Positions 1,866 through 59,515 of a DNA stretch of 64,000 nt are shown one piece after another; positions within the stretch are counted from its first letter, which is position 1, and the number at the start of each line of letters is the position of its first letter. The position numbers and the translations under genes were made by a program. The notes beneath the pieces are model-generated. The model was not told the DNA's origin and did no database searches. It was given only the letters and a program-made list of their open reading frames with translations. The stretch covers positions 30,921 to 94,920 of the forward strand of contig CADBCY010000003.1 in NCBI GenBank assembly GCA_902793325.1. The letters run 5' to 3'. Source of the DNA: an uncultured Eubacteriales bacterium. GTDB lineage: Bacteria > Bacillota > Clostridia > Christensenellales > Aristaeellaceae.

Positions 1866-3614
1866 TCATGCATCCCGCGCGGGCCGGTACGCGCAGGTTA
1901 CGACCGTGGTGTTGAAGCCGACGATCTGGTGGTATTCGACGTTCGAGGCCAGCGCCCGTATGAGCGGGAGCCCGGTGACCATCCCGCCGTCCGTCATGTA
2001 CTCGGTGGGGTTGAAGATCCGGCCGCTGTCGCGCACCTTCAGCACCACGCTGTCGTCCAGTATGCGGAAGAACAGGTCGATCTGGTCGGCGGGCTTCAGC
2101 CCGGAGTACCGCGCGATGTTCACGCAGAGCTCCTCCGCGGAGACGCCCACCGCGCCCGCCAGCCCGGGCGGCAGGCCGTTGGCCCGGCAGAAATCCAGCA
2201 GCGCCTGGGACGCCTCCGTGGCCTCGCGCTCCGTGCAGCCGATGCTGGCCTCCCAGGTCCGGCTGATCTCCGACGGGCGCAGCATCAGGAAGCTGTCGCA
2301 GCCCTCCCGCTTCGCCCTGCGCCGCATGCGGCACGCGACGAAGGCCATGGACAGCGCCGCGGAGATGGCGAAAGCGGACGCCATCGGGAGGATGCCGACC
2401 CGGGACAATAAATAGAAAATCGGAATCATGAACACCGCCCCCTGGAGCACCGACAGCTCCGTGGCGGTGTTTTCGTGTCCCGTGGACTGGTAGAAGCAGC
2501 GCAGCACGTACAGCGGCGCGACCAGCGGAACGGCGAGGCAGTACACGCGCAGCCACGGGACCAGGATCGACAGCATCTGCGCGTCGTTCACGCCGTAGAT
2601 GCCGGCGAACGCCGCGGGGAACAGCTCCAGCCCCGCGAAGATGACCGCGCAGAGTCCCAGCACCAGTGCCAGCGCCGATTTCAGCACGTGCAGCATGCCG
2701 TTGCGGTCCCGCTCGCCGTACAGCGCGCCCACGACGCTGGCCATCGAGGTCGCCGCGCCCTCCGCCGCCATCGTCGCGTAGAGCATGCCGGCGTTGCATA
2801 CGGAGATGATCTGCCCGCCCGCGCTGCCCAGCATGCGCAGCATGGTGGCGTTGACGGTGTAGTTCCTGAGCATGTCGCAGGCGTCGATCAGCGATATGGG
2901 CAGGCCCACCCGCAGCACCTCGACCAGGCGGCCGAGGTCGCCGGCCCCGGGCCGCACGAAGCGCAGCGAGCGCGACCGGCTGCGCAGCCAGGGGATCAGC
3001 AGGCCCGCGGCCAGGGCGTAGCCCGTCACCGTCGCCCACCCCGCGCCGCGGATCCCCCAGCCGAACACGCGAATGTACAGTATGTCGCACAGCAGGTTGA
3101 TGACGTTCGCCACGATCGGGATCGACGCCGCCAGCCTGTGGCGGCTCTCCAGCCGCATGAAGGACGCCGAGCCGTTGCTCAGCACGGTGAACGGCGCCAG
3201 CGCCCACAGCGGCCGCAGGTAAGCCTCCACGCTCGCGCCCAGCGCGCCCGGCCCGGCCAGGAACCCGGCCAGCGCCGGCGCGGTCAGCATGCCCGCCGCC
3301 GCGAGCAGCGCGGAGAACAGCACGCCGCCGCCCAGGGCCAGCGTGAACACGCGGTTGCATTCCTCGAACCTGCGCGCGCCCATCCGCTGCGACACCAGCG
3401 TGCCGCCGCCCGAGATGAACAGGCAGAACGCGATGTTCTTCACGTACACCACCGGTATGGTCAGGTTTACCGCGGTGAACGCCTCCGGGCCGATCAGCTT
3501 GCCGACCAGTATGCCGTCCACGATGGTCGCCACGTAGATGGACAGCGTGAACGCCATCGTGGAACAGAGGTATTCCAAGTATTTTTTGCGCACCAGCACG
3601 CCGTTTCGCTTCAT
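1866..3614 (-). CDS. MATE transporter with C-terminal RsbW-like ATPase domain (copy A)
   Basis: A 582-residue protein in two parts. Residues 1-440 are a 12-helix MATE-type transporter (motifs such as ATIVDGILVGKLIG and SGGGTLVSQRMGARR). Residues about 455-582 match HATPase_c_2, the anti-sigma kinase fold of RsbW/SpoIIAB: N box E-x3-N in SAEELCVNIARYSG, G1 box VRDSGRIFNP, and a C-terminal GLPLIRALASNVEY segment. Membrane efflux coupled to a cytosolic nucleotide-binding or kinase module is inferred. It starts 15 bp after the NRPS stop on the same strand with GGGGAGGGACGGTT before ATG, so it is probably translated from the NRPS mRNA and may export the peptide. Two homologues lie at 41014-42751 and 57719-59515. 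Confidence 0.85.
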   Translation of the reverse strand: MKRNGVLVRKKYLEYLCSTMAFTLSIYVATIVDGILVGKLIGPEAFTAVNLTIPVVYVKNIAFCLFISGGGTLVSQRMGARRFEECNRVFTLALGGGVLFSALLAAAGMLTAPALAGFLAGPGALGASVEAYLRPLWALAPFTVLSNGSASFMRLESRHRLAASIPIVANVINLLCDILYIRVFGWGIRGAGWATVTGYALAAGLLIPWLRSRSRSLRFVRPGAGDLGRLVEVLRVGLPISLIDACDMLRNYTVNATMLRMLGSAGGQIISVCNAGMLYATMAAEGAATSMASVVGALYGERDRNGMLHVLKSALALVLGLCAVIFAGLELFPAAFAGIYGVNDAQMLSILVPWLRVYCLAVPLVAPLYVLRCFYQSTGHENTATELSVLQGAVFMIPIFYLLSRVGILPMASAFAISAALSMAFVACRMRRRAKREGCDSFLMLRPSEISRTWEASIGCTEREATEASQALLDFCRANGLPPGLAGAVGVSAEELCVNIARYSGLKPADQIDLFFRILDDSVVLKVRDSGRIFNPTEYMTDGGMVTGLPLIRALASNVEYHQIVGFNTTVVTCAYRPARDA

Positions 3615-3629
3615 AACCGTCCCTCCCCG

Positions 3630-6600
3630 TCAGACGTCAAAGAACCCGAAGCCCGCCATGGCCCGGATGGCCCGCTCGATGTACTCCGGCGTGATGACGG
3701 GCCACGAGAAGCCGAGGCGGTAGAGCGCCTTGACGGTATAGGCGTTGCTGACGTCCACGTAGCGGTGGACCTCGCCGCCGTTGGTCTGGTAGGATACCAG
3801 GCTGGAGACCTCCAGGCTGTGCGCCGGGTCCGTCAGCATTTCGTTGAGCCGCTGCCGGAACCGCCCGGCGGTGACCACGTTGAGCCGCATGCCGCAGTTG
3901 TCGAGCGCCTCGAGGATGTTGGCCATGTGCACCACGTGGCAGTTGTCCGCGTGGAACACCGTGTACCGATCCTGCGTGCCGGCGAGCAGCACCAGCGCCC
4001 GGGCGACGGAATCGACGGGGGAGAACTCCACCGGCGTATCCATGTCCTCCACCGGGAAGCAGCCCAGCGCCACGTAGGCCCGCAGCCGGTTCATGAAGCC
4101 GTTGGTGGTGAAGTTGATCTGGAACTCGCCGTCGCTGCGCCGGCTCATCAGGTTGCCCACGCGCATGATCTTGGCGCGCAGGCCGCGCTCCGTGATCGCG
4201 GAGAGGATCTCCCGCTCCGCCTGGAGCTTGGACCGGGTGTACTTCGTGCCCAGCGTCTGGCCGATGTCGAGGTCGCACTCGGTAAACCGCCGCCCCTCCG
4301 GCACGCTGCCGTCGACGGACTGCCCGGCCACGCTCTCGGTGGACACCTGCACGAGGCGCGCGCCCTTTTGGAGCGCGAGCTCGATCAGGTTCCGCGCGCC
4401 CTGCAGGTTGACGCGCTCGATGATGTCGTCCTGGGCGAAGTGCTTGACCACCGCCGCGCAGTTAAAGACGGTGTCGACGGGGAAACCGTCCAGCGCCTGC
4501 GCGAGGTCGTCGTCGGTGACGTCAGCCATGACGATGCGGATGCGCGCCTCGAACGCCGCGTCGAAGGTATCGTCGAAGTAGTACGCCAGCAGCGCCTTCA
4601 GCCGCTGCTCCGCCGACAGGCGCCGCTTCGGCCGCACCAGGCAGACGATGCGCTCCGCGCGATCCTGCCGCAGCAGCTCCCGCAGCACGTGGATCCCCAG
4701 GAAGCCCGTCGCGCCCGTCAGCAGCACGTTGCCGAGCGGCGCGGACGCGATGCCCTCCAGATGCGCCGCGGTATTGCAGGCCAGGGCCCCGCAGCCCGGC
4801 GGCGCGGCCTGCGGCTGCGGCGCGGGCGCCTGCTCCGGCGGGGCCTCGCGCTCCGGCGGGCGGCGGACGAAGGCGGCCAGCGCCCGCGGCGTGGTGTGGT
4901 CGAACACGTTCCGGTAGACCAGATCCCAGCCGCGGCCGACGGCGAAGGCCACCACCATCATGGCCGACAGCGACGTGCCGCCGATCTCGAAGAAGTCGTC
5001 CGTGGCGCCGACGCGCGGGCGCTTCAGGATCTCGGCGAAGCAATCGCAGAACGCCCGCTCCACGTCGTCGGCCGGGGGCTCGAAGGCGCTCGCGGCGCGC
5101 TCGAAGCCCACGTCGGGCAGGCGCTTGCCGTCGATCTTTCCGTTGGCGGTCAGGGGCATTTCGTCGAGCTGCGTCAGCACGTCCGGGATCATGTAGGCCG
5201 CCAGGCGCTCCCGCATGAAGCCGGCGAGCGCGTCGGCGGACACCCGTTCCCGCGCGGTGTAGAAGCCCGCGAGGTAGTCCTCGGAGCCGTTGTTGCGGAC
5301 GACGACCTTTGCCAGCTGGATCCCCGGCATGGCCAGCATGACGCTTTCGATCCCGTCCAGCTCCACCCGCAGGCCCCGCAGCTTCACCTGGTTGTCCCTG
5401 CGGCCGCGGAAATCGATCTCGCCGTCCGGCAGCAGCCGCGCCAGGTCGCCGCTCCGGTAGGCGGGGCGATCCCACAGGCGGAAGAAGCACTTCGCGGTCA
5501 GCTCGTCCCGGTTCCGGTAGCCGCGCCCCACGCCCTCGCCGAGAATCACCATCTCGCCCAGCGCGCCCAGCGGCAGCACGTGGCCGCCTGCGTCCGTCAT
5601 GACCACCTTCACGTTGCCGTTGGGCAGGCCGATGGTCACGCGCTCGCCGCCCGTCATCACCGCCATGGTGCAACTGATGGTGGCCTCGGTCGGGCCGTAG
5701 CCGTTCATGATGTACACGTCCCGGTTCCACGCGCGGATCTTGTCGTACAGCGCCGCCGGGAATGCCTCCGCGCCGACGTCGATGGCGGCGAGCCGCTCGA
5801 TCGCCGGGCGCATCGCGGGCACCTCCAGCAGGTTCGACAGCAGCGACGGCGTGCAGGTGAGCAGGTCCACGCCGTTGTCCAGGCACAGCGCCCGCAGGGC
5901 CCGGTAGTCGCGGCGCTCGTCGTCGTTGGCCATGACGACGGTCAGGCCGTGGGCCAACGGGATGAATTCCTCCATGACGGACACGTCGAACGATACGGAG
6001 GCCAGCGCCAGCGACACCCGGCCGCGCCGGATATAGCCCAGGATCTCCCGGTTCCTGGGGTTGTCGTCCACGAAATTCACCAGGTTGCGCTGCGTCAGCA
6101 GCACACCCTTGGGCCGGCCCGTGGAGCCGGAGGTGTAGATGGAATAGGCCAGCGCGTCGAAGGGCACGTCGAGGTTCAGGTCGTCGGCGGACAGCGAGGG
6201 ATCGGTTGCGTCCTCGACGAAGCAGACCTCCAGCCCGGGCCGCTCGAACAGCGCGCCGCGGGCGGCGAAGAGGTCCCGGGAGGTGACGATCTGCGCGCAG
6301 CCGGCGTCCTCCAGGATGAAGGAGATGCGGTCGTCCGGGTATTCCGGGTCGATGGGCAGGAACGCGCCGCCCGCCTTCAGTATGCCCTGCCGCGCCACGT
6401 AGACTTCCACGCCGCGGTTCAGCAGCACCGCGCAGAGCCTTTCCACGTCCAGGCCGCGGCGGCGCAGCAGCCGCCCCAGCCGGTTGGCCCGGGCGTTCAA
6501 TTCGGCGTAGGTCAGCCTTTCGCCGTTGGCGACGGCGGCCACGCGGTCGGGCCACTTCGCCGCGCTGTCCTGGAGCAGGCGGTAGGCGGGGCGCTCGGCC

Positions 6601-9600
6601 ACGGGCCAGTCGGTGTCGTGCAGCGCCCTCAGCGCGGCCTCCGTGGCGTCGGACGCCGGGCGCACCGCGCCCAGCACCTCCTTCGTCAGGAATTCCGCGG
6701 CCACCTGCGCCATGCAGTCCATGAACGAGCGCACGAAGGCCGCGCCGTAGACCTCCGGCCGGTGCTCGCACGCGAAGGCGATGCGGCCGCCCTCGACCGA
6801 AACGTCCACGGACAGCGCGGACTTGGCGGTGTCCGACGCCGGGCGGATGACCTCCGCGGGCGCGCCGCAGAAGATCGGCGCGATCTCCATATCGTCCTGC
6901 CAGGCCACCATCAGCTCCGCGCTGACGCCGTAGGCGCGGGCGATTTCCGCGAAGCCGAACGAATCGCTGTTCATGGAGCCGTCCAACTGGTCCCGCACCG
7001 CGGCCAGGTAATCCGCCACCCGCGTCTCGGGCGTCCACCGGCAGCGCACCGGCAGCGTCCGGACGAGCATGGTCACGGTGTTGAACGCGCGGCTGTCGCT
7101 GCGCCCGTCGTAGATGGTGGTGAACACGGCCTCGTCCGAGGCGGTGAACGCGCCCAGCGCGTAGCCGAACACGGCGTTGAAGAACGCGTTGCCGGTGACC
7201 CTGTGCGCCGCGCAGAAGTCGCGCACCGCGGCGGCGTCCAGCCCGGTCAACAGGCGCAGGGGGCCCGCGCCGCCCTCGCCGGGCAGCGGGAGCAGCTCGG
7301 TCATCCGGGCGTCAGAGAGCAGGGCGTCGTACCAGGCCTGCGCCTCGGCGTAGCGCGGCCCGCCGCGCCGTTCCGATTCCTCCAGCGCCGCCTCGTAGCC
7401 CGTGAAGCGCTCCGGCTCGGGGGCTTCGCCCGCGTAGGCGGCCTCGATGTCCCGCTGCAGCAGGGCGCGGGAACGGCCGTCCGCGGCGATGTGGTGCATG
7501 TCGAGGTAGAAGTAGTTCCCTCCGGGCGTACAGTGGATCTCCGCCCGGTACAGCGCGTCGTGCAGCAGGTCGTAGGGCCGCGCAAGGCGCTCCGGCGCGA
7601 TGGGGGCGTCGCTGCGGATCAGCTCGACCTGCGCCGGGGCGGCGTCGTCCCGCAGGGCGAAGATCTGCCCGTCCCGCTCCCGGAGCCGCGCCTTCATGTA
7701 GGGGTGCGCGTCGACGGCGGCGGCGACGGCCGCGCGCAGGCGCCCGAGGTCGATGCCGTCGTCCAGCTTCCACAGCACGGGGATATTGTAGATGGTGGTG
7801 CCGGGGTGGTTCAGGCACTCCACGTAGATGCCGTACTGGGCCTGCGTCAGCGGGTACTCCTCCCGGACCTCGTAGGCCCTGCCCGCCTCCGCGCGCTCCA
7901 GCCACGCCGCCAGCGCCTCGACGGTATCGTGGGCGCGCAGCGCGGCCAGCGTCACGTCCCGCCCGAAGGTTTCGCTGATCCTGAGCATCAGCGCCACCAG
8001 CGTCAGCGAGGTCAGGCCGATGTCCGCGAAGGCGGTGCGGATGCCGAAGGCGCGCGAGCCGACGATCGCCGCCACGATATCGAACACGCTTTGCTGCGCG
8101 TCCGTCTCCGGCGGCGTCGCGTCGTCGTCCGTCGCCTGCAGCTCCGGCACGGGCAGGGCCTTCAGGTCGGTCTTGCCGTTGGCGGTGACCGGGATGGCGT
8201 CCAGGCGCGTGATGGCCGCGGGCACCATGTAGCGGGGCAGGCGGGCCGCCAGCGCCGCCTTCAGCGCCGATTCGTCCAATGCCGCGTCGCCGGTCCAGTA
8301 CGCGCAGAGCTGCTCCTGCCCGCCGATCACCTTGATCGCCGCCACCGCGCGCTTCACGCCCGGCTGCGCGGCCAGCGCCGATTCGATCTCGCCCAGCTCG
8401 ATGCGCAGGCCGCGCAGCTTCACCTGGCCGTCCATGCGCCCGAGGATCAGCACGTTGCCGTCTGCGTCCCATTTCGCGTAGTCGCCCGAGCGGTAGAAGC
8501 GCCCGCCCCGGAAGTCCACGAACCGCTCCGCGGTCTGCGCCTCCAGGTTGCGATAGCCCTTCGCCACACCGGGGCCGCCGATGTACAGCTCCCCGGTGAC
8601 GCCCCGGGGGACCAGCTCGCCGTTCGCGTCCACGATGTACTCCCGCACGTTCAGCAGCGGCCGACCGACGGAGATGTGGTCTGCGCGCTCCAGCCGCGCC
8701 ATGTTGCTGGAGATGGTGCACTCGGTGGGGCCATAGGTATTGATGATACGGGGAATGCCCAATGCCCTCAGGCGCTCGAGCAGCGCCGCGGGATAGCCCT
8801 CGCCGCCCGCCATGACCAGTTTAAGCCCTGCCAGCGCCTGCTCGAAGGGCGGGTATTCGAGGTATTGCAGGTAGCGCGACGGGGTAGCGTTCATAGCGTC
8901 CACGCCGTTTTCCCGGATCAGCGCGGCGAGGGACCGGGGATCGTTCATGGCGTTCTCTGCGGCGAATACCACGACTCCGCCGTTGACCAGCATCCCCAGC
9001 GTATCCTTCAGGGACAGATCGAAGGACACCGTGGTCACCGCCAACATGCTGTGAATCTCCCGCGCCACCGTATCGTAGAGTATATTGGCCGGATGAACCC
9101 GGCAGAAATTGCAGATCCCCCTGTGCCGCAGCATCACGCCCTTGGGCGTGCCGGTGGAGCCGGAGGTGTAGATCATGTAGGCCAGGTCGTCCCCGGTCAG
9201 CGGTACGCCGGGGTTTTCGGTCCTCTTGCCCGCGAGCAGCGCTTCGATGTTCACCGCTGCCCCGGGGTGGTCGGCCATGTGCGCGTCGGTCGCGATGATG
9301 CACGCCGCCCCGGAATCGCCGAGGATGTGCCGGATGCGCTCGGCGGGATACTCCGGGTCGCAGGGGATGAACGCCGCACCCGCCTTCAACGCGCCGAACA
9401 GCGCCGAGAAGTAGAAGCTGCGGCGCGGCAGCAGTAGCGCGACGCGGTCGCCCGGCCGTATGCCCCTGTCGATCAGGCTCCAGGCCACGCGGTTCGCGTC
9501 GGCGTTCAATTCCGCATAGGTCAGCGTCCTGTCGCAGGCAACCAGCGCCGTCTGGTCCGGCTTCTGCGCCGCGACCCGCTCAAACACCCCGTGCAGCAGG

Positions 9601-10925
9601 GTTTCCGGGATTTCCGCCGTCGCGGCGACGGACAGCGCCTCCAGCTCCCTGGCCTGCCTTTCGGGCAGCGCGCCCACGTCGCCCACGGTGGCGCCGGGCG
9701 ACGCGCACATGGCCCCGAGCGTCGCGTCGAGCTGCTCCAGGAAGTTGTCGATCAGCGCGTCGTCGTACAGCCGGGACGAGTATTGCAGCGTGAACGCCGT
9801 CTCCGCCCCGCGGCGGCGAATGGTGACGCTCATGTCCCGCTTCATGCGCTGCAGCGGCACGCGCGGCTCGACGGAGATCGCGCCGTCCGTCGCGACCGGG
9901 GGCATGTACAGGTAATTCACGCTCACGTCGAAGATCGGGTTGCGCGAGGCGTCGTGCGCCGGGGCGAACGTCCGGACCACCTCGGCGAAGGGCAGCCAGT
10001 CGCCGTGCGTGGCGGCGCGGATGGCCGAGGCGACCTCGCGCAGGTAGTCCGCCAGCGGCTTGCGCGCCGCGGGCTTCACCCGCACCGGGGCCGTGTTGAC
10101 GAACATGCCGATCACGTCGCGGCTGCGCTCGTCCCGCGTGTTGGTGGGCACGCCCAGCACCACGTCCTCGCTGCCGCAATACCGGCTCAGCGCGATCGAC
10201 ACGGCGGCGAACAGGAACTGGAAGGTGGTGCATCCCGCGGCCTTCGCCGCGCGCCCGACGGACTCGATGCGCCCGGCGTCGATCGCCAGCGCCTTGCAGC
10301 GGTCCGTCGCCGGCATCGCCTGCGGCCGCGGCCCCCGGGTGGGCATTTCGGGGACGGGCACGCCGTCCGCGAACATCGCCCGATAGAGGGCGAGTCCCCG
10401 CTCCAGCCGGGCGGAGTGATCGTCGAGCGCCAGGTCGGACAGGTCCGTCGCCGCAATTCCGGGCGCCTCGCCCTTCAGCCGCGCCAGCAGCTCCCCGGTC
10501 AGCGCGGCGAGGCTGCCCCCGTCGATGGCGATGTGGTGGATGGCCAGGTCCACCAGCACGCCGCCCGTTTTGAGCGCGTAGCCCGTCGGGCGAAGCGGCA
10601 CGCCGGCGCGCAGGTCGAAGGGGGCGTCCCCGGAAAGGGCGATGTCCTCGGCCGCCTGCCGGTCATCGGCCTCGCGCCAGAGGATGTCCGGCGCCTCCTC
10701 CGTCATGATCCGCACGGGCACGCCGTCGACGTTGTCGTAGCGGGAATGAAACGCCTCGTGTGCGGCGAACACGTCCCGCAGCGCCGCGTCCACGGCTTCG
10801 CGCGTCGCGCCCTGAATGCAGTAAAGCAGATGAGTGTTGTACTCGGTGGAAGCCGGGTCGTTCATCTGCTCCAGGTACATGCCGCACTCGCAGGCCGTCA
10901 ATGGGAAGCACTTGTCGCGCATCAT
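3630..10925 (-). CDS. Two-module nonribosomal peptide synthetase, C-A-T-C-A-T-R
   Basis: A 2,431-residue NRPS. Domains by motif: C1 about 1-430 (HHIAIDG at 130-136), A1 about 445-920 (YTSGSTGTPKG near 588), T1 about 935-1005 (GLTSL near 972), C2 about 1020-1440 (HHIAADG near 1144), A2 about 1455-1930 (YTSGSTGRPKG near 1598), T2 about 1945-2020 (GGTSL), terminal thioester reductase about 2060-2431 (GATGFLG near 2072, later YTRSK as Y-x3-K). NADPH release as a dipeptide aldehyde, possibly N-acylated by C1, is expected; similar gut-clostridial NRPSs make peptide aldehydes or pyrazinones. By-eye binding-pocket residues, from GrsA alignment by memory, are about D-L-K-N-V-A-T-I-S for A1 and D-V-M-T-I-V-G-I-S for A2; they do not name the amino acids. 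No phosphopantetheinyl transferase is in the window. Start: GAGGT precedes ATG at 10925. Confidence 0.92.
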   Translation of the reverse strand: MMRDKCFPLTACECGMYLEQMNDPASTEYNTHLLYCIQGATREAVDAALRDVFAAHEAFHSRYDNVDGVPVRIMTEEAPDILWREADDRQAAEDIALSGDAPFDLRAGVPLRPTGYALKTGGVLVDLAIHHIAIDGGSLAALTGELLARLKGEAPGIAATDLSDLALDDHSARLERGLALYRAMFADGVPVPEMPTRGPRPQAMPATDRCKALAIDAGRIESVGRAAKAAGCTTFQFLFAAVSIALSRYCGSEDVVLGVPTNTRDERSRDVIGMFVNTAPVRVKPAARKPLADYLREVASAIRAATHGDWLPFAEVVRTFAPAHDASRNPIFDVSVNYLYMPPVATDGAISVEPRVPLQRMKRDMSVTIRRRGAETAFTLQYSSRLYDDALIDNFLEQLDATLGAMCASPGATVGDVGALPERQARELEALSVAATAEIPETLLHGVFERVAAQKPDQTALVACDRTLTYAELNADANRVAWSLIDRGIRPGDRVALLLPRRSFYFSALFGALKAGAAFIPCDPEYPAERIRHILGDSGAACIIATDAHMADHPGAAVNIEALLAGKRTENPGVPLTGDDLAYMIYTSGSTGTPKGVMLRHRGICNFCRVHPANILYDTVAREIHSMLAVTTVSFDLSLKDTLGMLVNGGVVVFAAENAMNDPRSLAALIRENGVDAMNATPSRYLQYLEYPPFEQALAGLKLVMAGGEGYPAALLERLRALGIPRIINTYGPTECTISSNMARLERADHISVGRPLLNVREYIVDANGELVPRGVTGELYIGGPGVAKGYRNLEAQTAERFVDFRGGRFYRSGDYAKWDADGNVLILGRMDGQVKLRGLRIELGEIESALAAQPGVKRAVAAIKVIGGQEQLCAYWTGDAALDESALKAALAARLPRYMVPAAITRLDAIPVTANGKTDLKALPVPELQATDDDATPPETDAQQSVFDIVAAIVGSRAFGIRTAFADIGLTSLTLVALMLRISETFGRDVTLAALRAHDTVEALAAWLERAEAGRAYEVREEYPLTQAQYGIYVECLNHPGTTIYNIPVLWKLDDGIDLGRLRAAVAAAVDAHPYMKARLRERDGQIFALRDDAAPAQVELIRSDAPIAPERLARPYDLLHDALYRAEIHCTPGGNYFYLDMHHIAADGRSRALLQRDIEAAYAGEAPEPERFTGYEAALEESERRGGPRYAEAQAWYDALLSDARMTELLPLPGEGGAGPLRLLTGLDAAAVRDFCAAHRVTGNAFFNAVFGYALGAFTASDEAVFTTIYDGRSDSRAFNTVTMLVRTLPVRCRWTPETRVADYLAAVRDQLDGSMNSDSFGFAEIARAYGVSAELMVAWQDDMEIAPIFCGAPAEVIRPASDTAKSALSVDVSVEGGRIAFACEHRPEVYGAAFVRSFMDCMAQVAAEFLTKEVLGAVRPASDATEAALRALHDTDWPVAERPAYRLLQDSAAKWPDRVAAVANGERLTYAELNARANRLGRLLRRRGLDVERLCAVLLNRGVEVYVARQGILKAGGAFLPIDPEYPDDRISFILEDAGCAQIVTSRDLFAARGALFERPGLEVCFVEDATDPSLSADDLNLDVPFDALAYSIYTSGSTGRPKGVLLTQRNLVNFVDDNPRNREILGYIRRGRVSLALASVSFDVSVMEEFIPLAHGLTVVMANDDERRDYRALRALCLDNGVDLLTCTPSLLSNLLEVPAMRPAIERLAAIDVGAEAFPAALYDKIRAWNRDVYIMNGYGPTEATISCTMAVMTGGERVTIGLPNGNVKVVMTDAGGHVLPLGALGEMVILGEGVGRGYRNRDELTAKCFFRLWDRPAYRSGDLARLLPDGEIDFRGRRDNQVKLRGLRVELDGIESVMLAMPGIQLAKVVVRNNGSEDYLAGFYTARERVSADALAGFMRERLAAYMIPDVLTQLDEMPLTANGKIDGKRLPDVGFERAASAFEPPADDVERAFCDCFAEILKRPRVGATDDFFEIGGTSLSAMMVVAFAVGRGWDLVYRNVFDHTTPRALAAFVRRPPEREAPPEQAPAPQPQAAPPGCGALACNTAAHLEGIASAPLGNVLLTGATGFLGIHVLRELLRQDRAERIVCLVRPKRRLSAEQRLKALLAYYFDDTFDAAFEARIRIVMADVTDDDLAQALDGFPVDTVFNCAAVVKHFAQDDIIERVNLQGARNLIELALQKGARLVQVSTESVAGQSVDGSVPEGRRFTECDLDIGQTLGTKYTRSKLQAEREILSAITERGLRAKIMRVGNLMSRRSDGEFQINFTTNGFMNRLRAYVALGCFPVEDMDTPVEFSPVDSVARALVLLAGTQDRYTVFHADNCHVVHMANILEALDNCGMRLNVVTAGRFRQRLNEMLTDPAHSLEVSSLVSYQTNGGEVHRYVDVSNAYTVKALYRLGFSWPVITPEYIERAIRAMAGFGFFDV

Positions 10926-42874: not shown

Positions 42875-43300
42875 GTGAGACAGGAGCAGGCGCCGCCCGT
42901 CGTGGCGAAGGTCAAGCTGACGCTGTATGCCGGGGAGCGCTTCTTTGGCCCCGGGATCTGCGAGCTGCTCGAGAGGATCCGGGAGAGCGGCTCCATCCAG
43001 GCCGCGGCGGCGCAGATGAACATGTCCTACACCAAGGCGTGGAGGATCCTGAACCGCGCCGAGGGCGAGATGGGGGTCTGCCTGATCACCCGCGTGAGCG
43101 GGGGCAGGCGCGGCGGAAGCTCGACCCTGACCGCGGCGGGGGAGGAAGCGGTCGCCGCCTTCCGGGAGATGGAGGCGAAGCTGGCCGGGCTCGCGGGCGA
43201 CCTCCTGGCGGCGCGCCGCGACGCTTTCCGGCCGCAGGCACCCGCGGACGGGCCGGACGGCGAGGCATGCGGCGCGCGCGCAGCGGGGGAGATGCGATGA
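42875..43300 (+). CDS. ModE-like winged-helix transcriptional regulator without molybdate-binding domain
   Basis: A 141-residue protein. Residues about 10-95 match the N-terminal ModE/LysR-type winged helix: AKVKLTLYAGERFFGPGICELLERI, helix-turn-helix GSIQAAAAQMNMSYTKAWRILN (39-60), then LITRVSGGRRGGSSTLTAAG. The tail (96-141) is low-complexity. No Mop/TOBE domain is present, so it cannot bind molybdate in the way ModE does. GTG follows GGGGGGAGCGAATC. It is the first gene of the selenium-maturation operon and overlaps the next start (ATGA), so it probably controls this operon and perhaps the hydroxylase genes. Confidence 0.85.
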   Translation: MRQEQAPPVVAKVKLTLYAGERFFGPGICELLERIRESGSIQAAAAQMNMSYTKAWRILNRAEGEMGVCLITRVSGGRRGGSSTLTAAGEEAVAAFREMEAKLAGLAGDLLAARRDAFRPQAPADGPDGEACGARAAGEMR

Positions 43301-44442
43301 TTTATCTGGACAACGCCGCGACGACGATGCAGAAGCCGCCCTGCGTCGCCCGGGCGGTGGCGGAGGCGCTCACGAGCCTTGGCAACGCCTCGAGGGGCGC
43401 CCACGAGGGCGCGCTGAATTCAAACCGCCTGCTGTACAGGACGCGCGGCAAGCTGGCGGATTTCTTCGGCTGTCCGAAGTCGGAGCAGGTCATCTTCACG
43501 AACAACGCCACGGAGGCGCTCAATATCGCTCTGAACGGCACGATCCGGGCGGGCGACCACGTGATCATGACGGCGCTGGAGCACAATTCCGTGCTCCGCC
43601 CGCTGTACCGGCTGCGCGAGGAACGGGGGGCGGAGCTCTCCCTCGTCCCGGCGGACGGTCGGGGATGCGTCGACTACGCGGCGTTTGAGCGGCTGATCCG
43701 GCCGAACACCCGCGCCATCGTCTGCACCCACGCCTCCAACCTGACGGGCAACATGCTGGACATCGCCCGGATCGGCGGGCTCGCGGCGGCGCGCGGCCTG
43801 CTGCTGATCGTGGACGCCTCCCAGACGGCCGGGGCCGTGCCCATCGACATGGCGCGGTCGGGCATATCGATACTCTGCTTCACGGGGCACAAGTCCATGA
43901 TGGGGCCGCAGGGGACGGGCGGGCTGTGCATCAACGGCGACATCGAGGTCGAGCCCCTCAAGGTCGGCGGCACCGGTGTGCAGTCGTTCCGGACGGCGCA
44001 GCCGCGGGAATACCCGACGCGCCTGGAGGCCGGGACGCTGAACGGGCACGGCATCGCCGGGCTCGCGGCGGCGCTGGACTTCATACGGAGCACCGGCGTG
44101 GAGGCCATCCGCGCCCATGAGCTCGCCCTCGCCCGGCGGTTTTACGAGGCGGTCGTCGGTATCCCGGGGGTGCGGGTGTACGGCGACTTCTCGACCTGGG
44201 ACAGGAGCCCGATCGTCGCGCTGAACATCGGGGAGCTGGATTCGGCGTGGGTCTGCGACGAGCTCGCCCGCGGCTACGGCATCGCCACGAGGGCGGGCGC
44301 GCACTGCGCGCCGCTGATGCACCGGGCGCTGGGCACCGAAGAACAGGGAGCCGTGCGCTTCAGCTTCGGCTACTTCAACACGAACGACGACGCCGACGCG
44401 GCGGCGGAAGCCGTCGGGGCGATCGCCGGCGGCAACGAATAA
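43297..44442 (+). CDS. Cysteine desulfurase-like class V aminotransferase (EF2568 type)
   Basis: A 381-residue PLP enzyme. MIYLDNAATTMQKPP at the N terminus, PLP lysine K199 in CFTGHKSMMGPQGTGG, and active-site Cys C337 in RAGAHCAPLMH are the desulfurase/selenocysteine-lyase signatures. The subfamily typified by Enterococcus EF2568 is known to co-occur with orphan SelD and selenium-dependent molybdenum hydroxylases. Likely role: mobilising Se or S from (seleno)cysteine for selenophosphate synthesis or cofactor insertion. ATG at 43297 overlaps the ModE-like stop; yedF follows after 15 bp. Confidence 0.87.
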   Translation: MIYLDNAATTMQKPPCVARAVAEALTSLGNASRGAHEGALNSNRLLYRTRGKLADFFGCPKSEQVIFTNNATEALNIALNGTIRAGDHVIMTALEHNSVLRPLYRLREERGAELSLVPADGRGCVDYAAFERLIRPNTRAIVCTHASNLTGNMLDIARIGGLAAARGLLLIVDASQTAGAVPIDMARSGISILCFTGHKSMMGPQGTGGLCINGDIEVEPLKVGGTGVQSFRTAQPREYPTRLEAGTLNGHGIAGLAAALDFIRSTGVEAIRAHELALARRFYEAVVGIPGVRVYGDFSTWDRSPIVALNIGELDSAWVCDELARGYGIATRAGAHCAPLMHRALGTEEQGAVRFSFGYFNTNDDADAAAEAVGAIAGGNE

Positions 44443-44457
44443 CGGAAAGGAAGAGGG

Positions 44458-45075
44458 ATGACAATGGAGAGAACGATCGACTGCATGGGCATGGCCTGCC
44501 CGCTGCCCGTGATCAACGCGAAGAAGGCCATCGAGGCGTTTGCGGAGGACGGCCTGCTGCACGTAAAGGTGGACAACGACACGGCGGTCCAGAACCTGAC
44601 GCGGCTGGGCGAGCACAACGGCTTCACCGTCACCTCCGCGCAGGACGGCCCGGGCGCGTATACGGTGACCATGCAGGTCCGGGCCGGGGCGGCGGCCAGC
44701 GTGCCGGCGGAGGCCGTCAGCTGCGCGGCACCCGCGAGGGGCGGCAAGGTGGTGGTGCTCTCCGCGGACACCATGGGCAGCGGCGACGAGCGGCTCGGCA
44801 AGAAGCTGATGAAGGCCTTCGTATTCGCGCTGACCAGCCAGGACGAGGTGCCGGACAAGGTGATCTGCTACAACACGGGTGCCTACCTGACCACGAGGGA
44901 CCCGGATACCGTGAAGGACTTGCGTCGCCTCGCGGAAGCCGGCGCCACCGTCATGACCTGCGGGACCTGCCTGGACTTCTACGGCCTGAAGGAGGAGCTG
45001 CAGGTGGGCATCGTGTCCAACATGTACGACATCGTGGAAGCGCAGATGAACGCCTCCCTCGTCATCCGGCCGTAG
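44458..45075 (+). CDS. yedF: Selenium metabolism protein YedF (TusA-DsrE fusion)
   Basis: A 205-residue protein. Residues 1-75 are a TusA/SirA domain with the C-P-x-P motif (DCMGMACPLPVINAKKA, C14); residues 95-205 are a DsrE-like domain with the conserved MTCGTCLDFYGL and VGIVSNMYDIVE. This fusion is the selenium-metabolism form of YedF found beside selD. It probably relays persulfide or perselenide from the upstream desulfurase. AAAGGAAGAGGG precedes ATG; DUF3343 follows after 17 bp. Confidence 0.9.
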   Translation: MTMERTIDCMGMACPLPVINAKKAIEAFAEDGLLHVKVDNDTAVQNLTRLGEHNGFTVTSAQDGPGAYTVTMQVRAGAAASVPAEAVSCAAPARGGKVVVLSADTMGSGDERLGKKLMKAFVFALTSQDEVPDKVICYNTGAYLTTRDPDTVKDLRRLAEAGATVMTCGTCLDFYGLKEELQVGIVSNMYDIVEAQMNASLVIRP

Positions 45076-45092
45076 CGGCCGGGCGCAGGGCC

Positions 45093-45329
45093 ATGAGGAA
45101 GAAGGAGCGGCGGCTGATCGTCGCCTTCCACACGACGCACGACGCCATGGCGTTTGAGGACTTCTGCGGCGCGCGCGGGGCCGAAGGGCGGCTGATCCCC
45201 CTTCCGAGGGAGATCAGCGCCGGCTGCGGCCTCGCGTGGAGCGCGCCGCCCGGCGATGCGGACGGGCTTCGGGCATTGCTCCGGGAAGCCGGGATCGTGC
45301 CGCAGCACGTGCGGGCGCTGGAGATCTGA
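45093..45329 (+). CDS. DUF3343 putative Se/S carrier protein
   Basis: A 78-residue protein: LIVAFHTTHDAMAFEDFC at the start and the signature PREISAGCGLAW (single conserved Cys) in the middle. DUF3343 proteins are small putative Se/S carriers next to YedF and SelD. The start at 45093 is the first Met that gives the family length; a preceding GGGCGCAGGG is only a weak ribosome site, so coupling to yedF translation is likely. selD begins 25 bp downstream. Confidence 0.82.
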   Translation: MRKKERRLIVAFHTTHDAMAFEDFCGARGAEGRLIPLPREISAGCGLAWSAPPGDADGLRALLREAGIVPQHVRALEI

Positions 45330-45354
45330 TATAACCCGACCACCGGAGGATCGA

Positions 45355-46395
45355 ATGGAAACGAAGGCAAGGCTGACGCGGCTGGCTTCCTGTGCCGGCT
45401 GCGGCGCAAAACTGGGCGCGGGAACGCTCGCGTCCCTGCTGCAGGATTTCAGGACGCACACCGACCCGCGGCTGATCGTGGGGTTTGACAAGAGCGACGA
45501 CGCCAGCGTCTACGCGATCGACGGGAACACGGCGCTGATCCAGACCGTGGATTTCTTCCCGCCCATCGTGGACGACCCCTACCTGTTCGGCCAGATCGCC
45601 GCCGCGAACGCCATCTCGGACGTCTACGCCATGGGCGGGGAGCCGCACCTGGCGCTGAACGTGCTGTGCGTGACGGAGAACATGGAGCAGGCGTGGATCC
45701 GGGAGATCCTCCGCGGCGGCTACGACAAGGCCTATGAGGCCGGGGTGATCATCTCCGGCGGGCACACCATCCGCGGCGGCGAACCGCTGTACGGGCTGTC
45801 GGTCACGGGCTTCGCGAAGCCGGATCAAATCTGGCGGAACGACGCGGCCAGGCCGGGGGACGTGCTGATACTGACCAAGCCGCTGGGCGTCGGCGTGCTG
45901 ACGACGGCGGCCAAGGCCGGCATGGCGGACGCGGCGCTGATGGAAAAGGTCCATCGCCAGATGACACAGTTGAACCGGGACGCCTGCCGCGTGATGCGGG
46001 AGTATCGGATCCACGGCTGCACGGACGTGACCGGGTTCGGGCTGATGGGCCACAGCTGCGAAATGGCGCAGGGCAGCGGCTGTACGCTCCACGTGCAGGT
46101 CGGGAAGGTGCCGTTCCACGCGGAGGCGCTGGAGCTGGCGGACATGGGGCTGGTTCCCGCCGGGGCCTACCGCAACCGGGATTTCGCCGAGGGCGCGGTG
46201 GCGCTGCGCGGCGCGGTGTCCCGGGCCATGCAGGACATCCTGAACGACCCCCAGACCAGCGGCGGGCTGCTGGCCGCCGTGGACGAGCGGGATGCCGGGC
46301 CGCTGCTGCGGGCGCTTCGCTCCGCCATCCCCGCCGCGGCCGCGATCGGCTACGTGACCGAAGCGGAGGAGAAGGCCGTGGTGCTGGAGGCGTAG
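45355..46395 (+). CDS. selD: Selenide, water dikinase (selenophosphate synthase)
   Basis: A 346-residue PurM/AIRS-fold enzyme that makes selenophosphate from selenide and ATP. The N-terminal catalytic segment is SCAGCGAKLGAGTL with Cys16 and Lys19; the catalytic position is Cys, not selenocysteine. Also visible: QTVDFFPPIVDDPYLFGQIAAANAISDVYAMGG, SGGHTIRGGEPLYGL and a C-terminal NDPQTSGGLL. With no selA/selB/selC in the window and all SDMH maturation genes around it, it probably serves the labile-selenium cofactor of the Mo hydroxylase. GGAGGATCGA precedes ATG. Confidence 0.94.
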   Translation: METKARLTRLASCAGCGAKLGAGTLASLLQDFRTHTDPRLIVGFDKSDDASVYAIDGNTALIQTVDFFPPIVDDPYLFGQIAAANAISDVYAMGGEPHLALNVLCVTENMEQAWIREILRGGYDKAYEAGVIISGGHTIRGGEPLYGLSVTGFAKPDQIWRNDAARPGDVLILTKPLGVGVLTTAAKAGMADAALMEKVHRQMTQLNRDACRVMREYRIHGCTDVTGFGLMGHSCEMAQGSGCTLHVQVGKVPFHAEALELADMGLVPAGAYRNRDFAEGAVALRGAVSRAMQDILNDPQTSGGLLAAVDERDAGPLLRALRSAIPAAAAIGYVTEAEEKAVVLEA

Positions 46396-46431
46396 CCGCG
46401 GCGGAGGACAGGACGGGAAGGGAGCGAGGAT

Positions 46432-47253
46432 ATGGCAGGCCAGGCCCCTCTGATCATCGTGCGCGGGGCGGGCGACATCAGCACGGGCACCATCCACCGG
46501 CTCACGCGCGCCGGGTTCCCGGTGCTGGCGCTGGAGACGGATCGCCCGTCCGCCATCCGCAGGAAGGTGGCCTTTTCCGAAGCCGTCTACGACGGTACGG
46601 CGACGGTGGAGGGCCTCACGGCGGTGCGGATCGCGGACGCCGGGGACGCGGGCGCGATCCTGGCGCAGGGCGCGGTGCCGCTGCTGGTGGACCCCGCAGG
46701 GGCGAGCATCCGGCGGCTCGCGCCGGCTGTGGTGGTGGACGCCATACTGGCCAAGCGCAACCTCGGCACCGCCATGGACATGGCCAGGCTGACCATCGCG
46801 CTGGGGCCGGGCTTTGAGGCCGGGCGGGACGTGCACTACGTGATCGAGACGATGCGCGGGCACGATCTGGGGCGGATCATCGCCGCGGGCCGCGCCGCCC
46901 CCAACACCGGCGTCCCCGGCATCATCGGCGGGCACGGCGCCGACCGGGTGATCCACGCGCCCTGCGCCGGCACGTTCCGCATGCGCAGGGACATCGGCAG
47001 CACGGTGGACGCGGGGGAGATCATCGGGACCGTCGAATCCGGCGACGGCGAAGCGCCGGTGCGGACCGCGATCGCGGGCATCCTGCGCGGGGTCATCCGG
47101 GACGGCTATCCCGTCGCGCGGGGCTTCAAGCTGGCCGACGTGGATCCCCGGCTCGAGGAGCGGAAGAACTGCTTTACCATATCCGACAAGGCGCGGTGTA
47201 TCGCCGGGAGCGTGCTGGAGCTGGTCAGCGGTTTCGCCGCGGCCTCGCGGTAG
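46432..47253 (+). CDS. yqeB: Selenium-dependent molybdenum hydroxylase maturation protein YqeB (EF2563 family)
   Basis: A 273-residue protein beginning LIIVRGAGDISTGTIHRLTRAGFPVLALE, a Rossmann-like dinucleotide loop, with VVVDAILAKRNLGTAMDMA, TGVPGIIGGHGADRVIHAPCAGTF, and a C-terminal RGVIRDGYPVARGFKLADVDPR. These are hallmarks of the EF2563/YqeB family known only from genomes with selenium-dependent molybdenum hydroxylases. Exact chemistry unknown. GGGAGCGAGGAT precedes ATG. It is the last gene of the operon, closed by the terminator at 47321-47355. Confidence 0.9.
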   Translation: MAGQAPLIIVRGAGDISTGTIHRLTRAGFPVLALETDRPSAIRRKVAFSEAVYDGTATVEGLTAVRIADAGDAGAILAQGAVPLLVDPAGASIRRLAPAVVVDAILAKRNLGTAMDMARLTIALGPGFEAGRDVHYVIETMRGHDLGRIIAAGRAAPNTGVPGIIGGHGADRVIHAPCAGTFRMRRDIGSTVDAGEIIGTVESGDGEAPVRTAIAGILRGVIRDGYPVARGFKLADVDPRLEERKNCFTISDKARCIAGSVLELVSGFAAASR

Positions 47254-54743: not shown

Positions 54744-54807
54744 AGCGGCGCGCGGCGCCGGGGCCGCCGGAATAACGAACGGAAGCGAAGATTCCGCACT
54801 TTTTCAG

Positions 54808-54836: not shown

Positions 54837-54965
54837 AGAAAATGGATGGGTGTTTCCGGGGATCATGACGGCCGGGAGGGTCGTCCCGCGGCGCGTTCCC
54901 GATCCGATCGACACCGACACAGCGGCATGCCGCGCGACGGCAGAACACGATTCGGAGGCATGTAT

Positions 54966-56648: not shown

Positions 56649-56662
56649 CGCCGCCCCTCCCC

Positions 56663-56692
56663 GCGCCGGGCCCTGCGACAGCGGCCCGGCGC
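56663..56692 (+). terminator. Hairpin terminator after the APC permease
   Basis: GCGCCGGGCC (56663-56672) pairs perfectly with GGCCCGGCGC (56683-56692), 10-base loop, followed by GACATTCCTTCTT. It lies 15 bp past the permease stop. Confidence 0.65.
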
Positions 56693-56703
56693 GACATTCC
56701 TTC

Positions 56704-56732
56704 TTGCATATAATAGCTTAATATGTTATACT
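56704..56732 (+). promoter_or_regulatory. Promoter of the HD / MATE-ATPase operon
   Basis: TTGCAT (56704-56709), 17-base spacer, TATACT (56727-56732) in an AT-rich island within GC-rich DNA. Confidence 0.7.
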
Positions 56733-56827
56733 GTTAACACGATGAAAACCTCGGGACGCGGGGGAAAGGCTGTGCGGAACCGACGGATGCGGCGCGGCCC
56801 GAAGGGCGTGCGGAGGGAGTTGAGCGG

Positions 56828-57703
56828 ATGGCGGACGACAGCGATTTTGCCATGGAGCGCCGGCTCATGCGGCTCGACCCGGAGCTGCACAGGCGCTTTA
56901 CCGACGCGGTGTTCGCGTTGCAGCACAACCTCTCCAAATACAAGCTGCTCTTTCCCGAGTTCACGGATCATACGAACCTGCATTCCATGACGGTCATCGA
57001 TTTCTGCAATCAGTTGATCGGCAGCCAGATCGACCGGCTCAACGCGGACGAGCTGTACGCGCTGCTGATGGGCTGCTATTTGCACGACACCGGCATGGGC
57101 ATCACCATGCAGGACTACGAGCTGTTCTCCGCGGAGATCGACTTCGGGCGCTACTTCGATACCCACAGCCGCGATGACCTGCCGACGATCATCCGGGATT
57201 TCCACCACGAATTCTCCGGGCAGTTCATTCGCAAATACGCCGAGCTGTTCGAGATCCCGTCGGAGGCGCACCGCTGGGCGATCATCCAGATCGCGCGCGG
57301 CCATCGCAAGACCGACCTGGCGGACGAGCGCGAATACCCCGCGGCGCTGCCCGTGCCGGGCGGGAACGCGATCTGCCTGCCCTACCTGGCGGCGCTGATC
57401 CGCCTGGCGGATGAAATCGACGCCACCTCGGCGCGCAATCCGATCCTGCTGTACGACCTCGAATCCATGACGAGGGAATACGATATCCTGTGGTACAAGA
57501 CGCTGCGGGCCATCCGGACGCTCGAGGTGACGGAGGATGCGTTCACGCTGCACGTCGAGGAAGCGGACGGCCCGACGCTGGCGCACATCCGGCATGTGGC
57601 GGAGAAGATGCAGAAGACGCTGGACTACTGCCGGGCCGTCGTGTCGGATCGCACGCCCTACGCCATCACGCAGCAGCGGGTGATCGTCGAACAGACCGCC
57701 TGA
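56828..57703 (+). CDS. HD-domain metal-dependent phosphohydrolase
   Basis: A 291-residue HD-superfamily protein. Ligand pattern: FTDHTNLHS (H48, H52), YLHDTGMG (H86-D87), RDFHHEFSGQF (H126-H127), IARGHRKTDL (H159) and LIRLADEIDAT (D195, D198). This spacing resembles the HD-CE type, which is often fused to GHKL/HSP90-like ATPases in conflict systems. Here the neighbour 15 bp downstream is a transporter ending in a GHKL-type ATPase domain, an equivalent pairing in separate chains. Nucleotide or modified-nucleotide hydrolysis is expected. GGAGGGAGTTGAGCGG precedes ATG. Confidence 0.83.
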   Translation: MADDSDFAMERRLMRLDPELHRRFTDAVFALQHNLSKYKLLFPEFTDHTNLHSMTVIDFCNQLIGSQIDRLNADELYALLMGCYLHDTGMGITMQDYELFSAEIDFGRYFDTHSRDDLPTIIRDFHHEFSGQFIRKYAELFEIPSEAHRWAIIQIARGHRKTDLADEREYPAALPVPGGNAICLPYLAALIRLADEIDATSARNPILLYDLESMTREYDILWYKTLRAIRTLEVTEDAFTLHVEEADGPTLAHIRHVAEKMQKTLDYCRAVVSDRTPYAITQQRVIVEQTA

Positions 57704-57718
57704 AACGGGGGCCATACC

Positions 57719-59515
57719 ATGAAACACGGCATACTTCGCGGCAAAGACCCAATGCTTGTAAACCTGTTCTTCAGGTTGCTGCCCGTGCAGGTGGCGATCG
57801 TCGCCATGGGGTCGATCAACACCATCGTGGACGGCGTCATCGCGGCGCGCTTCATCGACCTGACCACGGTGGGCGTGGTCGGCCTGTATTTTTCGATGCT
57901 GCGCGTGCTGGAGGCTGCGGGCGCCATACTGCTGGGCGGCGTATCGGTGCTGAGCGGCCGCAGCCTCGGCGCCGGCAAGATCGACAGGACCCGCGGCGTC
58001 TGTTCGCTGGGCATCGTCACGGCGCTGGCGATCGGCGCGCTCCTGACGGCGGCCAGCTTCGTCGCACCGGGCGCCATCGCGGACATCCTCGGCGCCAACG
58101 CGGAGCTCCGGGGCGCGCTTATGGTCTACGTGAAGGGCTATGCCTTCGGCATCATCCCGCAGCTCGTGGGGCAGCAGTTCGCCGCCAGCCTGCAGCTCGA
58201 GCGCCAGGAGAAGCTGGGCCACATGGGCATCGTCGTCATGATAACGGTCAACGTGGTGCTGGACATCCTGTTCGTGGCCGTCTGGGGCATGGGCGTGTGG
58301 GGGCTGGCGCTTTCGACCGCCATCGCCAACTGGGCGTACTTCCTGGTGATCGTGCAGTTCTACTTCACGAAGCGGGCGCAGCTCAAGCCCAGCGTGCGGT
58401 TGATCGACTGGCGCGAGCTCCTTCCGGTCGTCAGGATCGGCTTCCCGAACGCCCTGCTGGTGGCCTGCCTCGCGGCGCGCGGCCTCGTCATCAACCGCAT
58501 ACTGCTCGCCTGTTCCGGCAGCGACGCCCTGACCGCGCTGTCCTCGTTCAACATGGTCAACGGCCTCATACTGGCCGTCGCGCTGGGCACGGGCTCGCTG
58601 GTGCGCATGCTCTCCAGCGTGTTTATCGGCGAGGAAAACCGGGAGGGCCTGCTGTCCCTGATCTGCATTGTCTCCTCCTACGTCATGGCCATGATGCTGG
58701 GGCTGGCGGTCGCCGTATTCCTGCTGTCGCCGGCGCTGGCCATGATCTTCTTCCCGGACATGGGCACCGAGGTGTTCCGCATGACCCGGCAGTTGTTTGC
58801 CATATACGCCGGCTGCATCCCGCCGATCCTGGTCTGCATTGCCTATTCCAACTACTGCCAGGCGGCCGGACATCACCTGTTCGTGAACCTGGTTTCCCTG
58901 ATCGACGGCTTCTTCAGCATGGTGATCCCCGCGCTGCTGCTCGCGCCGAGGCTCGGCGCGCTGGGCGTGTGGCTGGCTTTCCCCATCGGCATCGGCATTA
59001 CCATCGTCGTCTCCATACTCCACGCCGTCGTCCGCAGCCGGCGCTGGCCGCGCACCCTGGACGAGTGGCTGCTGCTGCCCGCCGACTTCGGCACGGGCGA
59101 GCGGCTGGTGCTGAACCTGCGCGACATGCGGGACGTCACGCAGACGGCCGAGCGGGTGCAGGCGTTCTGCGACGAGCACGGCATCGCGCGCAGGACCGGC
59201 ACGCACGCGGGCCTGTGCCTGGAGGAGATGGCGGGCAACATCGTGCGCCACGGCTTCCGGGCGGACCGGAAGAAGCACATCGTCGAGGTTCGCGTGGTGC
59301 TCCGCGAGGACGGCGTCGTGCTGCGCATCAAGGACGACTGCATCGCGTTCAACCCCCAGGAGTGGTACGAGATGACGGCCGGTGAGGACCCCATCGCCAA
59401 CGTCGGCATACGGCTGGTCTTCCGCCTGGCCGAGGAAGTGAACTACCAGAACCTCCTCGGCATGAACGTGCTGACGATCCGCCTGGCGGACGCTTCCCCC
59501 GCCCCCGGCGCGTGA
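57719..59515 (+). CDS. MATE transporter with C-terminal RsbW-like ATPase domain (copy C)
   Basis: A 598-residue protein with the same layout as copy A. Residues 1-445 are the MATE-type transporter (MGSINTIVDGVIAARFIDLTT; GGVSVLSGRSLGAGKIDRT). Residues about 460-598 match HATPase_c_2: N box LCLEEMAGNIVRHGF (E-x3-N intact), G1-like IKDDCIAFNPQEW (Gly replaced by Cys), and NVGIRLVFRLAEEVNYQNLLGMN. The G1 change may impair ATP hydrolysis or transfer while keeping nucleotide binding. Translation is probably coupled to the HD gene; AACGGGGGCCATACC precedes ATG. Substrate unknown. It is the last host gene before the tRNA junction. Confidence 0.86.
   Translation: MKHGILRGKDPMLVNLFFRLLPVQVAIVAMGSINTIVDGVIAARFIDLTTVGVVGLYFSMLRVLEAAGAILLGGVSVLSGRSLGAGKIDRTRGVCSLGIVTALAIGALLTAASFVAPGAIADILGANAELRGALMVYVKGYAFGIIPQLVGQQFAASLQLERQEKLGHMGIVVMITVNVVLDILFVAVWGMGVWGLALSTAIANWAYFLVIVQFYFTKRAQLKPSVRLIDWRELLPVVRIGFPNALLVACLAARGLVINRILLACSGSDALTALSSFNMVNGLILAVALGTGSLVRMLSSVFIGEENREGLLSLICIVSSYVMAMMLGLAVAVFLLSPALAMIFFPDMGTEVFRMTRQLFAIYAGCIPPILVCIAYSNYCQAAGHHLFVNLVSLIDGFFSMVIPALLLAPRLGALGVWLAFPIGIGITIVVSILHAVVRSRRWPRTLDEWLLLPADFGTGERLVLNLRDMRDVTQTAERVQAFCDEHGIARRTGTHAGLCLEEMAGNIVRHGFRADRKKHIVEVRVVLREDGVVLRIKDDCIAFNPQEWYEMTAGEDPIANVGIRLVFRLAEEVNYQNLLGMNVLTIRLADASPAPGA

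Follow-up and report, generated by a model that had tools for sequence, protein, structure and literature searches.

A 64,000-nucleotide stretch of contig CADBCY010000003.1 (assembly GCA_902793325.1, positions 30,921 to 94,920 of the forward strand; hereafter the window) from an uncultured Eubacteriales bacterium encodes two intact transporters of the MATE family, copies A and C, each fused to a C-terminal domain (the tail) akin to the anti-sigma kinases RsbW and SpoIIAB, as well as a disrupted and divergent copy B. Tailed MATEs constitute one grouping and a real conserved family. Genes of the partner switch, encoding STAS proteins, SpoIIE-type phosphatases and RsbW-type kinases, adjoin many of the class-wide relatives. 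In a number of gut and rumen bacteria this branch of MATE exporters has as its neighbor the phosphorylation switch that otherwise acts on sigma factors, and some bacteria may use the switch to control export. Judging from sequence comparison, we see about an even chance that the exporter is gated by partner switching, with a STAS protein docking on the RsbW-like tail.

Copies A and C Are Intact Fusions

The features on which the analysis is based are listed below; NRPS denotes a non-ribosomal peptide synthetase.

1866 to 3614, minus strand: copy A, MATE with RsbW-type tail, NRPS-linked subclade (Pfam MatE 9.5e-22, HATPase_c_2 3.4e-12)
1866 to 2267, minus strand: tail of copy A (HATPase_c_2 1.2e-13 for the tail alone; E-x3-N kept, G1 is D-S-G, short lid of 11 residues)
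3630 to 10925, minus strand: NRPS directly upstream of A, at a distance of 15 bases (Pfam: two stretches each of the condensation, adenylation and carrier types, with a reductase-type domain at the end)
41014 to 42751, plus strand: copy B, tailed MATE with its start split over three frames (open piece 41252 to 42751, MatE 1e-12; tree placement)
42365 to 42751, plus strand: tail of copy B, divergent, without the N-box asparagine (family tail profile E 7.6e-4; alignment with the tail of locus L179)
56828 to 57703, plus strand: HD-CE protein ending 15 bases before C (PF24391, 1.6e-33)
57719 to 59515, plus strand: copy C, MATE with RsbW-type tail, HD-CE-linked type (Pfam MatE 5.5e-14, HATPase_c_2 4.1e-13)
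59105 to 59515, plus strand: tail of copy C (HATPase_c_2 1.7e-14 for the tail alone; E-x3-N kept, G1 is D-D-C, one glycine at the G2 place)

A first-pass annotation of the window had described three MATE transporters fused to RsbW-like domains. This description was correct for A and C, which are single frames in which both domains exceed the Pfam cut-offs (HATPase_c_2, 46.9 and 49.9 bits against 27.4), and their tails alone matched HATPase_c_2 as well. It did not hold for B. The reading of B starts at 41014, passes through a second frame at about 41049 to 41235 and continues from about 41252 to the stop in a third; all three frames are thus entered in the first 240 bases, and the total of 1738 bases is no multiple of three. 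The open piece from 41252 contains most of the MATE domain and the tail, for which no Pfam or NCBIfam match was obtained up to E 1. A profile made from 29 other tails of the family matched it weakly (20.3 bits). Nearly the whole readable part of B, including the tail, could be aligned with L179, a tailed MATE that also lacks the N-box asparagine (26% identity over 491 columns). The fusion is genuine in A and C, and B is no sound third copy.

Searching the window's own genome with HATPase_c_2 and MatE revealed a fourth, divergent fusion, copy D, on contig C12 (frame 5590 to 7380). The tail of D gave no Pfam match and was recognized by the family tail profile with an E of 9.1e-13; D is 46% identical to the protein of locus L178 over 571 columns, tail included. 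MatE (PF01554) was above the Pfam cut-off in A, in the open piece of B, in C and in D. The genome yielded 38 MatE matches, usually two per gene, and contains many plain MATEs, one of which lies within the window (387 to 1838). Recent duplication of the window copies was rejected: copy A is 22% identical to C and 24% identical to D, and the three window copies occupy separate parts of the MATE tree.

An AlphaFold model of C (mean predicted local distance difference test score, pLDDT, 85.2; predicted template modelling score, pTM, 0.84) consisted of helices up to about residue 440, followed by a domain composed of a strand, two helices, two strands, two short helices and two strands. Foldseek matched this model to MATE structures, with a best E of 4.4e-13 and a TM-score by target of 0.82, and with whole models MATE and related flippases were among the matches listed. 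The Pfam MatE domain and, in the model of C, the predicted fold are shared with MATE exporters such as the DinF-like proteins and NorM.

Kinship and Conserved Residues of the Tail

The kinship of the tail with RsbW had been proposed from its motifs, and the comparison with solved structures agreed with it. The tail profile A2 matched RsbW (6m36) best, at 2.6e-7, and after it SpoIIAB (1tid/1th8, 1.7e-4) and the sensor kinase VraS (1.8e-4), these two nearly equal to each other. The NCBIfam RsbW model gave at most 17.2 bits against a cut-off of 145. By its sequence, the tail is a derived GHKL domain of the RsbW/SpoIIAB type, closest to RsbW and SpoIIAB. That it is an ordinary histidine-kinase end was rejected, as no HisKA or other dimerization domain was matched by Pfam in A or C up to E 1.

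Residues were counted in 123 distinct tails, from which six duplicates with the same core had been dropped and in which B, D and L174-L179 were left out. E-x3-N together with the G1 aspartate is retained in 116 of them. The set of catalytic glutamate, N-box asparagine and G1 aspartate is present in A and C and incomplete in B and D; the retention of the N-box in A and C and its loss in B had been noted before and were confirmed. The glycine place of G1 is occupied by cysteine in 108 tails and by glycine in 11, the full D-D-C being found in 101, and this cysteine is invariant in alignment A4 (48 proteins). At the G2 places the first residue is most often asparagine (80/123) and the second is glycine in 120. 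The lid has a median length of 16 residues, compared with 20 in RsbW-type domains that are not on a MATE. In all 13 such domains (nine from MATE-tail loci, three from other relative loci and one from the window's own genome) glycine occupies the G1 and G2 places. The first-pass annotation had given G1 as D-S-G in A and B and D-D-C in C, and these readings stand. Its view of D-D-C as a departure does not: cysteine, being the commonest residue at this place, marks the common tail type and no defect of copy C, and decay of the motif in C was rejected. The type of copy A, including L174-L177, keeps the glycine.

A tail that had become structural or vestigial, an old fusion now only stabilizing the protein, would fit the loss of the N-box asparagine in B and L179, in D and L178 and in seven of the counted tails. 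This loss looks inherited, since one relative of B and one of D show it too. The types without the asparagine are themselves conserved, as in the pair D and L178, and the C-like type is strongly conserved from Clostridia to Spirochaetes. A vestigial tail is very improbable.

In a second alternative the MATE part would sense a compound or an ion gradient and the tail would act as a kinase or anti-sigma module on a STAS or sigma partner, the output being gene expression and not export. Transporter-kinase fusions such as CbrA and CrbS exist, and the catalytic residues kept in most tails are in favor of such a sensor. The cysteine at G1 and the asparagine at the first G2 place argue against it, as opposed to the glycines of the 13 domains not on a MATE; the neighboring genes, considered below, also bear on it.

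Tailed MATEs Group Together

In order to assess whether the tailed proteins belong together, a tree was computed on the MATE columns only, from 50 tailed and 33 plain rows (a chosen sample, a "quick" search, unrooted). All 50 tailed rows and a single row labeled plain, L271, formed one set with a value of 98 in the SH-like approximate likelihood ratio test (SH-aLRT). The labels tailed and plain required two changes on this tree compared with 26 when they were shuffled, and none of 500 shuffles was as low. The contig start cuts L271 off shortly behind the linker, which resembles that of the tailed L179; this row is therefore probably tailed too. Apart from this truncated row, the plain MATEs sampled are without a tail and outside the tailed group. 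The MATE part of B was placed inside the tailed set; the quick search, the unrooted tree, the choice of rows and some long branches leave the precise position of B and D uncertain. The earlier suggestion that one regulated-export module had been reused agrees with this grouping and with the partner-switch, HD-CE or NRPS genes that adjoin the relatives.

Of 37 longer HATPase_c_2 frames of the genus, family and order, fetched among the 60 relatives listed, 29 were MATE fusions, all of them from the genus and family of the window. The assumption that every HATPase_c_2 frame of 600 to 720 residues is a MATE fusion was rejected, as eight of the 37 were SpoIIE or STAS-APH proteins carrying a HATPase_c_2 domain. 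The tail profile matched 27 of 28 genomes of the genus, with separate RsbW-type proteins among the weaker matches, and 72 of 291 genomes in a class-wide sample, with the same mixture. Among named genomes, the best 80 of 305 confirmed places were taken as loci, a few of them doubles or cut by contig ends. MATE and tail occupy one frame in 79 of these 80; in L203 the frames overlap. Judged by the titles of their records, the hosts are mostly rumen or gut Bacillota and include Butyrivibrio hungatei DSM 14810, B. proteoclasticus P6B7 and Oribacterium sp. NK2B42, besides metagenome-assembled genomes named as Erysipelotrichaceae, Oscillospiraceae, Spirochaetes and, once, Coriobacteriaceae. The query for named genomes was made from C-like tails, so that other types are under-represented.

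The annotation had known of no characterized system of this kind, and our literature search, whose coverage left out most subscription journals, likewise found no description of a MATE that carries an RsbW-type tail. The architecture may stand uncommented in domain databases, and "undescribed" is limited accordingly.

Partner-Switch Genes Adjoin Many Tailed MATEs

A STAS, SpoIIE or RsbW frame lies no more than 8 kb away in 18 of 27 class-wide fusion loci (16 of 20 among L151-L170, 2 of 7 among L174-L179 and L182), a set from 19 genomes and 11 genera that contains near copies. The loci without a switch gene are L152, L156, L161, L163, L174-L177 and L182. Among L151-L170, a switch gene immediately neighbors the fusion on the same strand in 11 of the 20 loci. 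Some loci have all three kinds: a STAS protein with the serine motif, a PPM phosphatase and a GHKL partner. The gene order is STAS, SpoIIE, MATE-tail and STAS-APH-RsbW in L157; NRPS, MATE-tail, STAS and SpoIIE-RsbW in L162; and STAS, a GH3-family protein, MATE-tail, SpoIIE and RsbW in L168. The motif Y-[IVL]-S-S-A-G-L-R is present in all 13 STAS proteins from the gene maps of L151-L170 as well as in the STAS protein on contig C22 of the window's own genome; the serine of S-S-A-G is presumably the phospho-serine site, as in SpoIIAA and RsbV. In five of these genomes, a STAS or SpoIIE gene lay within 8 kb of six of six tailed and three of 45 plain MATEs (Fisher 4.7e-6, no clean test because the linkage was already known when the genomes were selected), and one of the three linked plain MATEs is the truncated L271 of the tailed group. 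A single SigF query found no sigma factor in the loci searched save its own spoIIA locus, and no sigma family was among the families listed (25 of 148) that were common to at least two of 96 neighbor proteins from 14 of 20 loci.

These observations suggest a mechanism in which the MATE part would be an ion-coupled exporter and the cytosolic C-terminal tail, an RsbW/SpoIIAB-type GHKL domain that may bind nucleotide, would serve as docking and gating module. A STAS protein with unphosphorylated serine would bind the tail and be released once phosphorylated, or the reverse. Its state would be set by an RsbW-type kinase and a SpoIIE-type phosphatase in response to outside signals, and the exporter would stand where classical partner switching has a sigma factor. 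Within the genome of the window, the partnership would operate in trans. The switch genes of this genome lie on other contigs (STAS on C22, SpoIIE-type phosphatases on C12, C55 and C10, an RsbW-type protein on C44 and a spoIIA locus on C11), which makes a partner in trans possible.

Several results weigh against such gating. No switch gene stands beside A, B, C or D. Only two of the 29 genus and family fusion loci have one (L100 and L090; many flanks are short), as do 14 of the 80 named, mostly C-like, loci within the available flank, and the NRPS-linked L174-L177 have none in the stretch fetched. Near copies are included in the 18 of 27, and the control genomes were chosen with the linkage in view. 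Extracytoplasmic function (ECF) sigma factors would escape the one SigF query, and the neighbor families listed are 25 of 148. Finally, the separate kinase, rather than the tail, may be the STAS binder.

Two results also speak against the sensor alternative, in which the tail itself would be the kinase or anti-sigma module: 11 of the 20 loci L151-L170 already contain a separate RsbW-type domain, and no SigF-type sigma gene was found nearby with the one query. We regard the sensor as unlikely, though it retains some weight.

Other proteins encoded near tailed MATEs or in relatives combine switch components. STAS-APH-RsbW proteins (L151:7142-8701, L155:11705-13309, L157:8452-10038 and L242:5968-7605) unite the substrate and the kinase of a partner switch with a domain resembling small-molecule kinases; the APH-like part of L242 matched TIGR02172 below the cut-off. 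SpoIIE-type phosphatases are encoded directly beside a tailed MATE at L188:9449-11242 and L100:4510-6663. The latter has Cache and HAMP sensor domains, a possible signal input.

HD-CE Proteins Linked to the Copy C Type

The first-pass annotation had placed an HD hydrolase next to C, and this neighbor was identified as an HD-CE protein (PF24391). Among the 80 named loci, HD-CE is fused behind the tail in ten, in frames of about 870 to 910 residues of which five were checked with Pfam, and forms a separate adjoining frame in five (L189-L192 and L194, L189 and L190 being near copies). The HD-CE model used was built from all ten fusions and the window's protein. In the loci searched, HD-CE was seen with the C-like type only. 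The fusions make the link between HD-CE and the C-type exporter firmer than gene order alone would. In L183 the HD-CE part continues in frame into the last MATE helix and the tail. This frame (L183:7545-8636, 364 residues, the same in L116) joins the front of HD-CE to these parts by an internal deletion or an assembly join. No solved relative of HD-CE was found by sequence, and a literature search on HD-CE gave no result. A three-domain model reached a pTM of 0.64, and its packing was not used.

The association with HD-CE could mean that the tail senses a nucleotide or alarmone. A small molecule bound in the refitted GHKL pocket, with cysteine at G1 and an altered G2, would gate the exporter, HD-CE would destroy or bind this molecule, and the linkage to STAS and SpoIIE would be secondary. 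The 15 named loci with a fused or adjacent HD-CE, its position beside C in the window and the invariant G1 cysteine of alignment A4 are consistent with this. Such a tail is nevertheless unlikely, slightly more so than the sensor: HD-CE was seen with the C-like type only in the loci searched, and the STAS and SpoIIE neighbors of the other types are left unexplained. If the exporter is instead gated by a partner switch, the HD-CE phosphohydrolase-like domain, next door or fused behind the tail, would belong to the unit as well in the copy C type.

A Reductase-Ended NRPS Accompanies the Copy A Type

The NRPS reported beside A was confirmed. Copy A belongs to a subclade of ten rows (SH-aLRT 98), seven of which are NRPS-linked; L087 is NRPS-linked yet outside this subclade. 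In L162, L174, L175, L176 and L177, of which L174-L177 come from one genus, the tailed MATE is directly preceded by frames that match the condensation, adenylation and reductase parts of the window NRPS, and adenylation-domain frames lie downstream of it in L087 and L107, near contig ends. The window NRPS is 38% identical to that of L176 over some 2400 columns, most of its length, and the tailed MATEs of A and L175 share 26% identity.

The dipeptide-aldehyde NRPSs of the gut consist of two modules and a reductase end. The window NRPS may make a product of the dipeptide-aldehyde type, and in the copy A type the exporter's cargo would be what the adjacent reductase-ended NRPS makes. Gut NRPS products of this kind, ruminopeptin among them, have been described (PMC12327764). 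Like the enzymes of those clusters, the reductase-ended NRPSs beside A and in L162 and L174-L177 are gut NRPSs.

A related arrangement was observed in L104:2-9664, where a reductase-ended NRPS is directly followed by STAS and SpoIIE-RsbW genes, a partner switch tied to an NRPS; the stretch available contains no tailed MATE.

Relation to Known Switches and Transporters

Like the anti-sigma kinases RsbW and SpoIIAB, which are its best solved relatives, the tail has E-x3-N and the G1 aspartate, and STAS or SpoIIE genes adjoin it in many class-wide relatives. It differs from them in its fusion to a MATE, the cysteine at G1 in most members, the reduced G2 and the shorter lid, and its loci differ in that the one SigF query found no SigF-type sigma factor. 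In the transporters regulated by STAS domains, SulP/SLC26 and MlaB-MlaF, a component of the sigma-switch type likewise acts on a transporter; in the latter the STAS protein MlaB acts on the ABC ATPase MlaF (PMC7367683). The part borne by the transporter is the STAS domain in those systems and the GHKL partner in the present family.

Partner switching might thus act directly on a secondary transporter, with the tail as the lock, STAS as the key and sigma factors uninvolved, and the NRPS-linked type would couple product release to serine phosphorylation. We consider this quite possible, at somewhat below an even chance. If true, a switch of transcription control would govern export at the level of the protein itself, in a group of which many rumen and gut bacteria, including cultured Butyrivibrio strains, have members, and the reductase-ended NRPS clusters of gut Clostridia would gain candidates for their exporter and their signal input.

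Other Genes of the Window

The purine operon that had been assigned to the surroundings of B was not recovered among the genes tested. Those beside B encode a D-hydantoinase (38917 to 40293) and, in a row at 43039 to 47250, a protein of the cysteine-desulfurase/selenocysteine-lyase family, YedF, SelD and YqeB, a selenium and molybdenum-hydroxylase block. Downstream of C, the interval 60076 to 61813 encodes a protein of 192 residues resembling ParE-family toxins, followed by an FRG-domain protein.

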